From an uncultured Oscillospiraceae bacterium (GTDB lineage: Bacteria; Bacillota; Clostridia; Oscillospirales; Oscillospiraceae), in contig CANQUE010000001.1 of assembly GCA_947626905.1 (NCBI GenBank), positions 1-64,000 of the forward strand: a stretch of DNA of 64,000 bases, in the 5' to 3' direction. The notes below the pieces were generated by a model. The model was not told where the DNA came from and made no database searches. It saw nothing but the letters and a program-made list of their open reading frames with translations. The position numbers were made by a program, and so were the translations under genes. Within the stretch, counting starts at the first letter, position 1, and every line of letters begins with the position of its first letter. Shown here piece after piece: positions 51,768 to 58,465 of the stretch.

Positions 51768-53621
51768 TCACTCCGGGTCTGGGGAAATGGGCTGTTCTTC
51801 AGGCTGGGCCGGCGCCGCCGCGGCCGGGAACAGGACCTCCGCCTTGAAAAGATCGCCATCCAGCGTCAGCTGCAGATGGCCGCCCATGAGCTCGGAGAGG
51901 CTCCTGGCGATGGACAGGCCCAGGCCGCTTCCCTCCGTGCTGCGGGAACTGTCGCCCCGGACGAACCGCTCCATCAGCTCATCCGCCGGGATATCCAGCG
52001 GTTCCCGGGAGGTGTTCTTTATAGCCACGACCACCTCTTCCCCGTCGGAGGAAAGGTCAAAATAGGCCCTCGTGCCAGGCTGGGCATATTTCAAAACGTT
52101 CGTCAAAAGATTGTCCATCACCCGCCCCACCAGCCTTGGGTCGGCCAACACCCACAGCTCTTCTTCGGGGATGTGCAGCACCGGTTCGATCCCGGCAGTA
52201 GTCATGCGCTCGGCGTACTCTCCCGCCGACTGCTGTAGCAGCTCCCGCACATCAAAGACTTCGCTGCTCACATTTACCGCGCCGCTGGCAGCCCGGGACG
52301 CCTCTATCACGTCGACGGTAAGCTTCTTCAGCTTGGCGCTCTGCCGGTCCAGCACCTCCAAATACTCCCGGCGCACGTCCTCCGGCAGATCCTCTCCCAT
52401 AAGCAGCTGGATGTAATTGACGATGGAAGTCAGCGGCGTCTTCAGATCGTGAGACACATTGGTAATGAGCTCTGTTTTCATGCGCTCAGCCCGCATCTGC
52501 TCATCCACGGCCAGGGCCATGCCGTCGCCGATGCTGTTCAGATCCTCCCCCAGATCCTTCCACACCATATGCAGCCGGCCGGTGTCCACTTTATAATGCA
52601 GATCGCCCGCGGCCAGGGCCGACGATGCCTTGCGGATGCTCCGCGCCTCCATGCCCCATTTGACAGCGCAGGGGATCAGCGCCAGATCGAACAGGGCCAG
52701 CGGCATGGCGATGGCGCTGCGGAGGAACAGCACCGCCAGCGCACCGACGATGTTCACAGCCAGCACGCCCACCGCGATAGCCAGCGGAGATACCCGCAGG
52801 ATGATCCGGCGCAGCAGCAGCCTCTCTTTGCATACGCCCGCCCCCAGCTGGTTGGCCACGCAGCACCCGGTCAGCATCAGGATATACAGCGTGACGACGG
52901 TCTCGAAGCGCCCTCTGTAAACGCCCAGCAGGCTCAGCACGTCCAGAAGGTTGGCGATGACCTGCCAGCTGACAAAAACGTAAAAGAACAGGTTCGCCGC
53001 TATCGCCAGTCCAACCGCCAATACATCGGCGGGGATACGGCCCAGAAGGGTGAGCCTCCCCTGTTTGCCCTCCAGCGTCACCGCCGAGAGGCTCACCGCC
53101 AGGGAGAGCATCGTCAGCAGGGCCCCCGCAATGGCTATCGGCAGGATGATATTCCGCAGCGGATAGACGTTCTCAAAGAGATAGTATTCCAGATAGCACC
53201 CCTCATAGGGCTCCACAGGCAGGTTGACATAGCCGCTGAGGCTGTATGTCCGGCCGTCGGAAAGGGTGACCACCCCCGGCAGCGAATACACATAATGGGA
53301 GCGCTCTGTCCGTGTGTCGGCCTTGATGTCGCCGGTGCCGCCGTCTGTGATCAGATAAGAAAAGGCCTTGCCTCCGTATCCGCCCAGCTCAGTGCTGTAG
53401 GGATCTTCCAGCCACTGCAGGTTGGACTCCACATTCCAAAGGCTCTGCACCACATATTGGTTGCACATGGAAGTATTTTCAAATTGAAAATCATTGGAGT
53501 ACCACCCATCGATCAGCAAATAACGAAACATGGACGCCGCCAGCACCGCTGCCAGCAGGCTGACGAAAAACACCGCCAGCATCAGCAGCCGGAACCACAG
53601 CTTTTCCATGACAGCTCTCAT
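51768..53621 (-). CDS. Sensor histidine kinase
   Basis: A 617-residue membrane kinase. Residues 11-33 are a first membrane helix, about 34-150 an extracellular sensor region, then several more helices (about 155-320), an unusually large membrane part. A HAMP-like segment leads to HisKA with the phospho-acceptor in VSHDLKTPLTSIVNYIQLL, the N box NLLTNVLKYA, and a G box GSGLGLSIA. The end is Pro/Glu-rich. It follows the response regulator by 5 bp. The signal is unknown; closest in layout to VanS/PhoR-like kinases. Confidence 0.92.
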   Translation of the reverse strand: MRAVMEKLWFRLLMLAVFFVSLLAAVLAASMFRYLLIDGWYSNDFQFENTSMCNQYVVQSLWNVESNLQWLEDPYSTELGGYGGKAFSYLITDGGTGDIKADTRTERSHYVYSLPGVVTLSDGRTYSLSGYVNLPVEPYEGCYLEYYLFENVYPLRNIILPIAIAGALLTMLSLAVSLSAVTLEGKQGRLTLLGRIPADVLAVGLAIAANLFFYVFVSWQVIANLLDVLSLLGVYRGRFETVVTLYILMLTGCCVANQLGAGVCKERLLLRRIILRVSPLAIAVGVLAVNIVGALAVLFLRSAIAMPLALFDLALIPCAVKWGMEARSIRKASSALAAGDLHYKVDTGRLHMVWKDLGEDLNSIGDGMALAVDEQMRAERMKTELITNVSHDLKTPLTSIVNYIQLLMGEDLPEDVRREYLEVLDRQSAKLKKLTVDVIEASRAASGAVNVSSEVFDVRELLQQSAGEYAERMTTAGIEPVLHIPEEELWVLADPRLVGRVMDNLLTNVLKYAQPGTRAYFDLSSDGEEVVVAIKNTSREPLDIPADELMERFVRGDSSRSTEGSGLGLSIARSLSELMGGHLQLTLDGDLFKAEVLFPAAAAPAQPEEQPISPDPE

Positions 53622-53626
53622 GCGTC

Positions 53627-54313
53627 TTACCCCTCGATCTTATAGCCCTTTCCCCAGACCACTTTCAAATACCGCGGCTCCGCCGGATCGATCTCCAGCT
53701 TCTCCCGCAGATGGCGGATATGCACGGCCACCGTTCCCTCCGCACCCATGGGCTTGTCCTGCCACACCCGGCGGTAGATCTCCCGGCTGGAGAACACCTT
53801 TCCCGGGTTTTCCATGAAAAATTTCAATATGTCGTATTCCTTGGGCGTGATGGTGATCTCTTCCCCGTCCACTGTGACGGTCTTGGCGTCGTCGTCCAGT
53901 TCAATGCCGCCCAGCGTCAGCGCGGTGGGTCTTGTTTCCTTCTCCCCCAGGCGCATGTACCGCCGCAGCAGGGCCTTTACCCTGGCCAGCACCTCCTGGG
54001 CGTTGAAGGGCTTTGTCACATAATCGTCCGCGCCCAGCTCCAGGCCCATGATCTTGTCCTCATCCTCGCTCTTGGCGGTAAGAAGGATCACCGGTACATT
54101 GCTGCGCTGCCGCAGGATCGTCAGGGCGGACACGCCGTCCAGCTCCGGCATCATAATGTCCAGCAGGATCAAATGGATATCCCGATCGGACACGATATCC
54201 AGCGCTTCCCTGCCGTCGGCAGCCTCCAGCACCTCATAGCCCGCGCCGGTGAGATATATGTTCAACGCCCGGCGGATATCCCGGTCGTCGTCACAGATCA
54301 GAACAGTATACAC
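53627..54313 (-). CDS. OmpR/PhoB-family response regulator
   Basis: A 228-residue regulator. The receiver domain has the acidic pocket ICDDDRDIRRAL, the phospho-acceptor Asp in LILLDIMMPELDG, a Thr/Lys pair (LTAKSEDEDKI, YVTKPFNAQEV), and a C-terminal winged helix (ITPKEYDILKFFMENPGKVFS, VHIRHLREKLE). GTG 54313 is chosen because AAGGAGG lies 8 bp upstream; the GTG seven codons earlier would contain that site. It heads the operon with the kinase. Confidence 0.95.
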   Translation of the reverse strand: MYTVLICDDDRDIRRALNIYLTGAGYEVLEAADGREALDIVSDRDIHLILLDIMMPELDGVSALTILRQRSNVPVILLTAKSEDEDKIMGLELGADDYVTKPFNAQEVLARVKALLRRYMRLGEKETRPTALTLGGIELDDDAKTVTVDGEEITITPKEYDILKFFMENPGKVFSSREIYRRVWQDKPMGAEGTVAVHIRHLREKLEIDPAEPRYLKVVWGKGYKIEG

Positions 54314-54403
54314 ACCCTTCGCCTCCTTTTCCACCTTTTAAGGTATCACAACAAGCAGTGAGAAAAAAGAGGGAAATTCTTAAGATTTCCTTAATTCATA
54401 CCA

Positions 54404-54446: not shown

Positions 54447-56147
54447 TCATTCCTCCGGGATGACGGATTCCCGCTGGACAAAGGCGCGAAGAGAATTGAG
54501 CACGGCCAGCAGCGCCACGCCCACGTCCGCGAACACGGCCAGCCACAGCGGGCAGGTGCCGAACATATCCAGCACCAAGATCACAGCCTTGAAAGCCAGC
54601 GCGAAGAGGATGTTCTGCCATACGATGGACCGGGTCCTCTTGGCGGCGTCCATCGCGGTGACCACCTTGCTGGGCTCCGCGCCCATGATGACCACATCCG
54701 CCGCCTGGATGGCGGCGTCGGAAGTGGCGCCGTGGAGGGATATGCCCACATCCGCCGCTTGGATACAGTCGGGATTGGACTCGGCGTCCCCCACAAAGAT
54801 CAGCTTTCCCCGGCGGATCTGGCGGTTTTGGATCTCCTTTACCACCGCCACCTTTTCCGTGGGCATACAGTTGGGATAATACTCCCCGATGCCCACCTGA
54901 CGGGCAAACTTTTCTGTGGCGGCGGGACTGTCCTCGGTGAGCATGGCGATCTGCCGGTCATTGTTCCATTGAAGCACCGTGACGGCGCCGGACACATCCG
55001 GCTTGGCCACGCTGCCGAAAACGATCCTTCCGGCATACTGCCCGTCGATGGAAAGATATACGCAGTTTTCGTTCAGCTTATCCGCGCCGGGGTCCACTCC
55101 CTGTTCCCGGATGAAATCCAACGGTCCCAGGAGGATCTTCACCCCATCCACCTCGACGGTGATGCCAAAGGGATCTTCCTGCTGATGGAAGCTCTGGATG
55201 AGCTCGATATAGATGACGCCTTTATAGGCCGCCTTCACCGCCTCGGCATAATCGCTCTCCGAATAGGCGCAGGCATGGGCCGCGATGCGCAGGAAAACTT
55301 CCGGGTCCATCCGCTCGCTCTTCACGGAGCTGACCCGAAGCCCCTCCCCTTCCAGCGCGCCGGTCTTGTCAAAGACCACCGCCTTGGCCCGGGCCACATT
55401 GTCCATGGCGCAGGTGTTCTTGAAGAGGATGCCCTGGCGGGTGGTCCCGCCGATCCCGGCAAAATAGCTCAGCGGCACAGAGATCACGATGGCGCAGGGG
55501 CAGGCGATGACCATCAGCACCAGCGCCCGATAGACCCCCTCGATCACTGTGATCTTCAATACCAGCGGCGAGATCACCGCGATGATCACGGCGATGCCGA
55601 TGACCACGGGCGTATAGATGCGGGCAAAATGGGTGATGAATTCCTCGGTGCGGCCTTTGGGCCCCTTGTCAGAGCGGACCTCCGCCAGCGCGGCGCTGGC
55701 CTCCGGCGAACGGTTCTCCATCAGCCCCTCGATGCTATGGCGCACCTTCGCCACGGCAAAGCCCTGAAACAGCTCCCCCAGCTGGTACAGGATCATCACG
55801 CTGGCGCCCTCGCTGGCCTCCCCGATGATCACGGAGGCCACCGCCACCACGCTCATCAGCAGGCTCTCGTCAAAGAGCCGGCGGCGGACGATATTCGCCA
55901 CAGCCCGGATAAAGACGTCGTATCCGGCGCAGAGGATCGCCAGCACGTTGAGGGCCAACGCCAAATGGGGCAGCGTGCCCTCGGCTACCACTCCCCCAAT
56001 GAAAAAAGCGCCGGACGTGACCAAGCGCCAGACCATCACGGTGTCAAAACCGTGATGGTCATGGTGATGCTCGGCCATACAGTCGTCGCATGTGCAGTCG
56101 TGGCCGTGACCGGCCACTGCCTGTTTTATCTCCCGCAGAAAGCCCAT
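54447..56147 (-). CDS. Degenerate heavy-metal P-type ATPase homologue lacking the actuator domain
   Basis: A 566-residue CadA/ZntA-like protein. The frame aligns along its length with P1B pumps: a His/Cys-rich N-terminus (residues 13-32, HGHDCTCDDC...HHHDHH), membrane helices, the ion-site CPC (about 216-218), DKTG (about 260) and a normal membrane C-terminus. The actuator domain with TGES is missing: LMENRSPEASAALAEV joins directly to the segment before FITHFARIYTPVV. Other core motifs are altered: HP became SD (YSESDYAE), TGDS became TEDS, and GDGINDxP became GDAESNPD. The pump is very unlikely to cycle, yet there is no stop or frameshift. It starts 3 bp after fba. Confidence 0.82.
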   Translation of the reverse strand: MGFLREIKQAVAGHGHDCTCDDCMAEHHHDHHGFDTVMVWRLVTSGAFFIGGVVAEGTLPHLALALNVLAILCAGYDVFIRAVANIVRRRLFDESLLMSVVAVASVIIGEASEGASVMILYQLGELFQGFAVAKVRHSIEGLMENRSPEASAALAEVRSDKGPKGRTEEFITHFARIYTPVVIGIAVIIAVISPLVLKITVIEGVYRALVLMVIACPCAIVISVPLSYFAGIGGTTRQGILFKNTCAMDNVARAKAVVFDKTGALEGEGLRVSSVKSERMDPEVFLRIAAHACAYSESDYAEAVKAAYKGVIYIELIQSFHQQEDPFGITVEVDGVKILLGPLDFIREQGVDPGADKLNENCVYLSIDGQYAGRIVFGSVAKPDVSGAVTVLQWNNDRQIAMLTEDSPAATEKFARQVGIGEYYPNCMPTEKVAVVKEIQNRQIRRGKLIFVGDAESNPDCIQAADVGISLHGATSDAAIQAADVVIMGAEPSKVVTAMDAAKRTRSIVWQNILFALAFKAVILVLDMFGTCPLWLAVFADVGVALLAVLNSLRAFVQRESVIPEE

Positions 56148-56150
56148 CAA

Positions 56151-57119
56151 TCAGGCTTTGCCGTTGCAGCCCAGCACGTCCACCAGCTTGTGGCGAACCA
56201 GCTCCTTGATATTGGCCCGGGCGGGCTTCAGATACTCGCGGGGATCGAACTTGTCGGGGTGCTCATCAAAGAACTGGCGGATGGTGCCGGTCATGGTCAG
56301 ACGCAGGTCGGAGTCGATGTTGATCTTGCACACGCTCAGCGTGGCCGCCTTGCGCAGCTGCTCCTCGGGAATGCCTACCGCATCGGGCATCTTTCCGCCG
56401 TGGGCGTTGATCATCTGCACATATTCCTGGGGCACGGAGGAAGAGCCGTGCAGCACGATGGGAAATCCGGGCAGGCGGCGGGAAACTTCCTCCAGCACGT
56501 CGAAACGCAGAGGAGGCGGCACGAGCACGCCCTTCTCATTGCGGGTGCACTGGGCGGCAGTGAATTTATAGGCGCCGTGGCTGGTGCCGATGGCGATGGC
56601 CAGGGAGTCGCATCCGGTCTTGGAAACGAACTCCTCCACCTCTTCGGGGTGGGTATAAGAGGAATCCTCGGCGGAGACCTTCACGTCGTCCTCCACGCCC
56701 GCCAGCGTGCCCAGCTCGGCCTCTACCACCACGCCGTGATCGTGGGCGTACTCCACGACCTTGCGGGTGATCTCGATGTTCTTGGCAAAAGGCTCGGAAG
56801 AGGCGTCGATCATTACGGAAGTGAACCCGCCGTCGATGCAGCTCTTGCAGGTCTCAAAGTCGGGGCCATGGTCCAGATGCAGCACGATGGGGATCTCCGG
56901 GCATTCGATCACAGCGGCCTCCACCAGCTTCACCAGGTAGGTGTGGTTGGCATAGGCCCGGGCGCCCTTGGACACCTGGAGGATCACGGGAGCATGCTCC
57001 TCCCGGCAGGCCTCGGTGATGGCCTGGAGAATCTCCATATTGTTGACGTTGAAAGCGCCCACGGCATAACCGCCGTCGTAGGCCTTTTTGAACATTTCGG
57101 TCGAGGTTACAAGAGGCAT
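56151..57119 (-). CDS. fba: Class II fructose-bisphosphate aldolase
   Basis: Fba cleaves fructose 1,6-bisphosphate to two triose phosphates, zinc dependent. The 322-residue protein has YAVGAFNVNNMEILQAI, the zinc-binding LHLDHGPDFETCKSCID, catalytic VEAELGTLAGVED, the IGTSHGAYK zinc His, and VLHGSSSVPQEYV. AGGAGT precedes the ATG. It is divergent from the phosphofructokinase gene and followed at once by the degenerate ATPase gene. Confidence 0.96.
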   Translation of the reverse strand: MPLVTSTEMFKKAYDGGYAVGAFNVNNMEILQAITEACREEHAPVILQVSKGARAYANHTYLVKLVEAAVIECPEIPIVLHLDHGPDFETCKSCIDGGFTSVMIDASSEPFAKNIEITRKVVEYAHDHGVVVEAELGTLAGVEDDVKVSAEDSSYTHPEEVEEFVSKTGCDSLAIAIGTSHGAYKFTAAQCTRNEKGVLVPPPLRFDVLEEVSRRLPGFPIVLHGSSSVPQEYVQMINAHGGKMPDAVGIPEEQLRKAATLSVCKINIDSDLRLTMTGTIRQFFDEHPDKFDPREYLKPARANIKELVRHKLVDVLGCNGKA

Positions 57120-57153
57120 GGTAAAGACTCCTTTACTTTATTTTTCCATGGCC

Positions 57154-57182
57154 TTTATTTTAACGCAGTTTTATGTTATAAT
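57154..57182 (+). promoter_or_regulatory. Promoter of the phosphofructokinase gene (extended -10)
   Basis: TGTTATAAT (57174-57182) is a perfect extended -10; TTTATT 17 bp upstream is a weak -35. It overlaps the fba promoter on the other strand. Confidence 0.7.
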
Positions 57183-57185
57183 CAA
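57157..57185 (-). promoter_or_regulatory. Promoter of fba
   Basis: Minus-strand TTGATT (57185-57180) and TAAAAT (57162-57157), 17-bp spacer. Its -35 shares bases with the opposing -10 box, so the two cannot be occupied together. Confidence 0.6.
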
Positions 57186-57223
57186 CAAAAACATGAAAAA
57201 CATTGATTTTGGGAGGAAAAATC

Positions 57224-58465
57224 ATGGCAAATAAACTTGTCGGCGCCTGCGTCATCGGACAGTCCGGCGGACCCACCTCTGTCATCAACGCCAGCGCTTA
57301 CGGCGCCATCAGCGCCGCGCTGGAAGCGGAAGAGATCACCCAGGTGCTGGGTGCCGATCACGGCATCACCGGCGTGCTGGCGGACAAGCTCTATGATATG
57401 GGGCTGGAAGATCCTAAGGAGCTGGCCTACCTGAAAAACACCCCTGCCTCCGAGCTTGGCTCCTGCCGGTACAAGCTGGCGGACCCGGAAACGGACGATA
57501 CCGATTACAAGCGCATCCTGGATGTATTCAAAAAGCACAACGTCCGCTATTTCTTCTACAACGGCGGCAACGACTCCATGGATACCTGCGATAAGATCAG
57601 CCGTTATATGGCCAAGTCCGGCTGGGAGTGCCGTGTCATGGGCATCCCCAAGACCATCGACAACGACCTGTGGGGCACGGACCACTGCCCCGGCTTTGCC
57701 TCTGCCGCGAAGTACATCGCCACCAGCGCGATGGAAGTTTCCAAGGACGGGCGGGTCTACCCAACCGGCCAGGTGACGATCATGGAGATCATGGGCCGTC
57801 ACGCGGGCTGGCTGGCAGCCTCCGCCGCTCTCGCCACCCATTTTGGCGCGGGTCCCGATCTGGTATATCTGCCGGAGGTGGACTTTGACACGGACGCCTT
57901 TTTGGCAGACGTGGAAAGGATCTATAACGAGAAGAAGTCCTGCCTTGTGGCCGTGTCCGAAGGGCTGCATTTTGCCGACGGCACCTTCGTTTCTCAGGCA
58001 AAGACCAGCGCCACCGATGGCTTTGGCCATGCCCAGCTGGGCGGCCTTGCCTCCCGTCTGGCCGAACTGGTCAAGGACCGCACCGGCGCCAAGGTCCGGG
58101 CCATAGAGCTGAGCCTGCTCCAGCGCTGCGGGGCGCACCTGGCCTCCAAGACCGACGTGGAAGAGGCCGAAATGGCCGGCCGCAAGGCGGTCGAAGCAGC
58201 CGTGGCCGGCGAGACCGGCAAGATGGTGGCCTTCCAGCGCGCCGCCGATGAAAATGGGGACTATCGGTGTGAGTACATTCTTTTGCCCCTCACCTCCGTG
58301 GCCAACGCGGAGAAAAAAGTGCCCCTGGAGTGGATCACCCCAGAGCACAATTTCGTCACCAAAGATTTCATCGACTACGCCCTGCCCCTGATCCAGGGCG
58401 AGCCGGAGCGCCCCACCGAGTGCTCTCTGCCCCGCTACGCCAAGCTGAAGAAGATCCTGGCCTGA
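57224..58465 (+). CDS. 6-phosphofructokinase, probably pyrophosphate dependent
   Basis: The enzyme phosphorylates fructose 6-phosphate. The 413-residue protein has the phosphoryl-donor loop as YNGGNDSMDT and the catalytic PKTIDNDLWGTDH. ATP-type enzymes have Gly at the positions held here by Asp (GGND) and Lys (PKTIDND); Asp plus Lys is the usual sign of PPi use. Other motifs are IGQSGGPT, EIMGRHAGWLA and an insert-free C-terminus. ATG 57224 follows GGGAGG by 8 bp. Confidence 0.92.
   Translation: MANKLVGACVIGQSGGPTSVINASAYGAISAALEAEEITQVLGADHGITGVLADKLYDMGLEDPKELAYLKNTPASELGSCRYKLADPETDDTDYKRILDVFKKHNVRYFFYNGGNDSMDTCDKISRYMAKSGWECRVMGIPKTIDNDLWGTDHCPGFASAAKYIATSAMEVSKDGRVYPTGQVTIMEIMGRHAGWLAASAALATHFGAGPDLVYLPEVDFDTDAFLADVERIYNEKKSCLVAVSEGLHFADGTFVSQAKTSATDGFGHAQLGGLASRLAELVKDRTGAKVRAIELSLLQRCGAHLASKTDVEEAEMAGRKAVEAAVAGETGKMVAFQRAADENGDYRCEYILLPLTSVANAEKKVPLEWITPEHNFVTKDFIDYALPLIQGEPERPTECSLPRYAKLKKILA

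Follow-up and report, generated by a model that had tools for sequence, protein, structure and literature searches.

A P1B-2-derived pseudo-pump without an actuator domain, encoded directly behind the class II aldolase gene throughout a bacterial genus

The 64,000-nucleotide stretch of DNA analysed here, which we call the window, carries at 54447..56147 on the minus strand a gene for a 566-aa membrane protein that derives from a P1B-2 metal pump and has no actuator domain. We refer to this protein as the pseudo-pump. An actuator-less orthologue is present in 35 of 35 genomes of the genus, which belongs to the gut bacteria, and the deletion and the motif losses are common to all of them. Judged by its sequence, the pseudo-pump is a pseudoenzyme with a P1B-2 pump as its ancestor: its catalytic residues have been lost, and dN/dS is well below 1 across many species. 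We propose that it is a metal-binding, ATP-independent protein, fixed genus-wide, that would be co-produced with class II fructose-bisphosphate aldolase (FBA); we put the probability of this reading at roughly 0.6. The members named here are uncultured assemblies throughout. For two relatives with names, the assemblies carry the label uncultured Oscillospiraceae, and their “Lapin” isolate names suggest the rabbit gut.

The protein and its lost catalytic machinery

The open reading frame runs from an ATG at 56147 to a stop at 54447, and its relatedness is to P1B-2 (CadA/ZntA-type) zinc/cadmium ATPases. Pfam PF00122 matches the pseudo-pump at profile positions 92-177 of 181 only, which is the membrane part past the actuator; in an intact relative, the match covers profile positions 2-180. 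The scores for NCBIfam TIGR01525 (284.8 bits) and TIGR01512 (260.5 bits) are below the curated cut-offs of 346.25 and 313.5 bits, respectively, and the intact relative is above both (528). The initial annotation, made from the letters alone, had described an uninterrupted 566-codon gene for an actuator-less P-type ATPase; the reading frame, the PF00122 match and the alignment with intact pumps all bear this out. Modelling of the structure, which had been suggested as a check, gave a P1B fold. The AlphaFold2 model (pLDDT 79, from a shallow alignment) has eight transmembrane helices together with P and N domains, and its best structure matches are P1B proteins, with Z up to ~32. Identity to SsZntA (4UMV/4UMW) in the structural alignment is 25-28%. 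Antisense to the pseudo-pump and FBA genes, there is an 824-codon open frame (window 54732-57206, plus strand) that is most likely a by-product of opposite-strand codon usage.

Alignment with intact pumps shows that ~87 residues, including TGES, are absent between core helices two and three. In place of the actuator domain, a linker of ~23 residues (residues 143-166; 55650..55721, minus strand) joins the helices. SD replaces HP of the (S)xHP motif (55251..55256), TEDS replaces the TGDS/TGDT hinge motif (54927..54938), and GDAESNPD replaces GDGxNDxP (GDGINDAP) at the Mg2+ site (54768..54791), all on the minus strand; these three changes, alongside an intact CPC, are as the initial annotation described them. 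C293 (55269-55271, minus strand) occupies the place of the ATP-pocket Glu. The annotation's further claim, that DKTG stays, holds in part. DKTG is present in the window protein, but the Thr that should follow it is Ala, giving DKTGA for the DKTGT phosphorylation motif (55356..55370, minus strand). Most members have DKTGA, and the divergent ones drift further, to DKSG, DKAG, DQHS, DQTP or EKKA. In one genome (G016) the phosphorylation Asp itself is lost to Glu, and two others (G022 and G023) have DQ.

The pseudo-pump shares with P1B-2 ATPases (CadA/ZntA, SsZntA) the eight-helix P1B membrane domain, as modelled, the membrane site of CPC, Lys and Asp, and the folds of the P and N domains. Unlike them, it has no TGE(S/A/P) actuator, no HP or ATP-pocket Glu, no TGD, no GDGxND, no Thr in DKTGT and no ArsR partner, and it is encoded directly behind FBA.

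A P-type pump requires the TGES of its actuator for dephosphorylation, and GDGxND and HP for the handling of Mg2+ and ATP. Because TGES is absent, and GDGxND and HP are lost, a cycle of phosphorylation and dephosphorylation would not be completable; it follows from known P-type chemistry that the pseudo-pump should not pump. Could the protein nonetheless still have ATPase activity, with a second protein providing the actuator function in trans? Retention of the catalytic Asp in most members is in keeping with this idea. However, the Mg2+-site and ATP-pocket residues have been lost independently, and none of the 35 genus genomes has a stand-alone actuator ORF, since every PF00122 match falls within a large pump frame, at the end of a contig or within a single frameshifted pump. 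Hence, an actuator acting in trans is highly improbable, and we reject a split gene with its actuator elsewhere.

Conservation across the genus and a shift of constraint

Besides the window's own gene, 30 genomes have the pseudo-pump at full length, colinear, without stops and with 73-89% identity. In G007 it is split across two contig ends, and three divergent genus members (52, 45 and 38% identity) likewise lack the actuator. The only intact homologues are those that other genera have at this locus and those that are separate paralogues.

The loss of several catalytic motifs and a somewhat relaxed P domain could be taken as signs of a decaying pseudogene, or the deletion as an error of assembly. 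However, a homologue search, proposed with the initial annotation, found the deletion and the substitutions in all 35 genus genomes, thereby ruling out an assembly deletion. These genomes are independent, the genes have no stops, and dN/dS is far below 1. We reject both explanations, to which we attach almost no credence. For the ten closest pairs of pseudo-pumps, dN/dS is 0.03-0.12, and the median is 0.20-0.22 for pairs with usable dS, many pairs having high dS. For the same genomes and with identical treatment, dN/dS is 0.22 for the pseudo-pump and 0.30 for the intact P1B pump. The values, at ~0.2 overall, are not near 1, and with the losses shared by the whole genus they agree with the original proposal of selection for a non-pumping role rather than recent decay. 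A non-pumping role is well supported.

Outside the genus, actuator-less pumps occur as two copies in G085, a single genome from another genus of the family with 6% contamination; otherwise, the strong matches listed for 400 family, 394 order and 391 class genomes are all intact pumps. In our best trees, all actuator-less sequences form one clade, whose neighbours are intact pumps from G145, G111 and G092. Support for this clade is moderate (SH-aLRT 94, then 87/85; one change in 90% of bootstrap trees), and a topology test did not reject a grouping of G085 with G111 (p-AU 0.17). We favour a single origin for the clade, including the G085 copies, as the trees suggest. In G085, the pair of FBA and actuator-less pump occurs twice in the genome (L142, L143). 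The pairs may have been duplicated as a unit, or the contaminated assembly may mix two strains.

The pattern of constraint within the protein differs from that of a pump. The intact pump always shows lower conservation in the N domain than in the second half of the P domain (P2), with median identities of 64 vs 82%. In the pseudo-pump, N and P2 are conserved to about the same degree (71 vs 73%), and among divergent pseudo-pumps the N domain is better conserved than P2 in every pair, by a mean of 17 points. Parsimony changes in N and P2 number 271:285 for the pseudo-pump and 378:205 for the intact pump, in the same 21 genomes for both (odds ratio 0.52, Fisher p 5e-8, the counts being not fully independent). 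Without the two most divergent genomes, the contrast is still seen (p 4e-5). Together, the identities and the change counts indicate that constraint has shifted away from the catalytic P domain, which is somewhat relaxed in the pseudo-pump, and towards the N domain. This former nucleotide-binding domain (54996..55316, minus strand) has come under new constraint and contains two conserved motifs, AHACA and IYIEL; AHACA has its Cys where intact pumps have the ATP-pocket Glu. In divergent members, where metal ligands begin to go, no other large cytosolic part is as well preserved as the N domain. The membrane helices around the CPC and the last two helices are strongly conserved. Helix pair 91-145, whose equivalent in a normal pump runs into the actuator, is relaxed in the pseudo-pump relative to the intact pump.

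Pseudoenzymes, such as pseudokinases, have lost catalytic residues, but purifying selection maintains their fold and new constraint arises in one domain. The pseudo-pump has in common with them the catalytic loss, the purifying selection and the newly constrained domain. Unlike pseudoenzymes in general, it arose from a primary-active membrane pump that lost an entire domain.

Retained metal ligands

The initial annotation stated that a His/Cys-rich N-terminus is retained, and the comparison across the genus upholds this. The segment is cytosolic (HGHDCTCDDCMAEHHHDHHGFD; 56043..56147, minus strand) and has the lowest regional dN/dS (0.084); its H14, H16, C18, C20 and C23 are invariant in an alignment of 20 genus members. 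In G085, most of the His/Cys tail is gone from one of the two copies. Within the membrane domain, E113 (55809..55811) aligns with E202 of SsZntA (4UMV), the CPC (C216-P217-C218; 55494..55502) with C392/C394, K520 (54588..54590) with K693, and D541 (54525..54527) with D714, all on the minus strand. The CPC is invariant in the genus alignment. C216, C218 and K520 are retained in all members checked, and E113 and D541 in all but G016, the most divergent member (38%), in which the equivalents of E202 and D714 are lost. Hence, not every species requires the membrane metal site.

One function suggested by these ligands is a passive path: an eight-helix metal channel with no ATP-driven gate, through which Zn2+ or other divalent ions would move down their gradient, as in low-affinity uptake. 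This is consistent with retention of the membrane ligand set and the exit Glu, and with the strong conservation of the helices around the CPC and of the last two helices. However, a passive path accounts neither for the constraint newly acquired by the N domain nor for the conserved His/Cys tail. Moreover, G016 has lost part of the ligand set, and helix pair 91-145 is relaxed compared with the intact pump. We consider a passive path unlikely.

The aldolase locus and the proposed role

The class II FBA gene (56151..57119, minus strand) ends in a TGA 3 nt before the pseudo-pump ATG. The phosphofructokinase (PFK) gene (57227..58465, plus strand) is divergent from the FBA-pseudo-pump unit and is a conserved anchor of the locus. 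The order PFK (divergent), FBA, pseudo-pump is found in all genus members with contigs that are long enough, and the distance from the FBA stop to the pseudo-pump start codon is ~2-10 nt in the 34 genomes for which the junction was read. This spacing suggests that the two genes are likely to be translationally coupled. Downstream of the pseudo-pump gene there is a two-component system (window 51768-54334; L001-L030). Across the genus, identity is 71-91% for its response regulator and only ~35-69% for the adjoining histidine kinase. Several genus members (basal) have no two-component system beside the pseudo-pump gene, and we reject an obligatory partnership with this neighbour as a constant feature.

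In two other genera, the same PFK-FBA locus consists of FBA, an ArsR/SmtB-type repressor gene and an intact pump (G111, L144; G238, L149). The intact pump has a Cys-containing N-terminus, and over the C-terminal 400 residues it is 48.5% (G111) or 40% (G238) identical to the pseudo-pump. Unlike the pseudo-pump, it is full length, has all catalytic motifs, and has its own repressor gene between FBA and the pump. The two actuator-less genes of G085 lie ~80 and 160 nt behind FBA genes, with no repressor between.

Nearly every genus genome also encodes a separate intact P1B pump elsewhere, which raises the idea that the pseudo-pump is a regulatory subunit, pairing with and modulating the full-length pump of the same cell. 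Against this, the two are not co-located, and ArsR-type control goes with the intact pump only, an ArsR-type gene being near it in most genomes checked. No requirement for a subunit of this kind is known among bacterial P1B pumps. We regard such a role as very unlikely. In one genome, an intact-type P1B pump (G031:C18:3498-5032) appears to be split by a frameshift into frames of 183 and 571 aa.

What, then, might the pseudo-pump do? We propose that the ancestor was an ArsR-regulated zinc/cadmium P1B-2 ATPase encoded behind the FBA gene. In the pseudo-pump lineage, the actuator domain has gone, as have the residues of the ATP pocket and the Mg2+ site and the metal-responsive repressor, and the gene would have joined the glycolytic transcription unit of FBA. 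The product would be a membrane protein that binds divalent metal through the membrane CPC/K/D site and the N-terminal His/Cys cluster without using ATP, with the remodelled N domain serving as its surface for docking or sensing. Class II aldolase is a zinc enzyme. An attractive though unproven possibility is, therefore, that the pseudo-pump supplies or monitors metal for the aldolase made from the same message. A more specific version is tentative and, in our view, rather doubtful: an ATP-independent metal sensor or chaperone whose remodelled ATP pocket (C293, IYIEL) and membrane metal site would couple metal status to glycolysis via the co-translated aldolase. Sensor, chaperone, scaffold and passive path are all candidate roles.

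The FBA gene itself bears on these ideas. Within the genus, the FBA at this locus is of two types, 94-97% or ~70-74% identical to that of the window, and always in the same place (window 56151-57119, compared in L023, L026-L028, L030, L031 and L034-L036). FBA has probably been exchanged in situ, with the pseudo-pump left where it was, and this speaks against a close pairing specific to FBA. The swap, with no visible effect on the pseudo-pump, also weighs against a scaffold or membrane anchor in which the N domain tethers FBA or another cytosolic partner and metal is structural or irrelevant. Such a tether is consistent with the pseudo-pump start lying so few nucleotides past the FBA stop, and with an N domain that outlasts the metal ligands in divergent members, but it sits poorly with the invariance of the CPC and the His/Cys cluster in the genus alignment. 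We think it improbable that the pseudo-pump is only an anchor, and prefer a metal-binding, ATP-independent protein produced together with the aldolase.

P-type ATPases are textbook machines whose actuator, P and N domains are thought to be inseparable. A 2023 review of open questions describes three cytosolic domains as common to the P-type superfamily (PMC10654040). The open literature that we searched contains no description of an actuator-less or pseudo P-type ATPase family under selection, which is weak evidence of novelty, as subscription papers fall mostly outside it. In the genus described here, every species has lost the actuator along with most catalytic motifs, yet constraint is comparable to that on a working pump. 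The pseudo-pump thus shows, as a dissection made by nature, which pump parts have a use when pumping is lost; intact relatives at the same locus allow comparison, and the protein would link metal-binding machinery to a glycolytic metalloenzyme.
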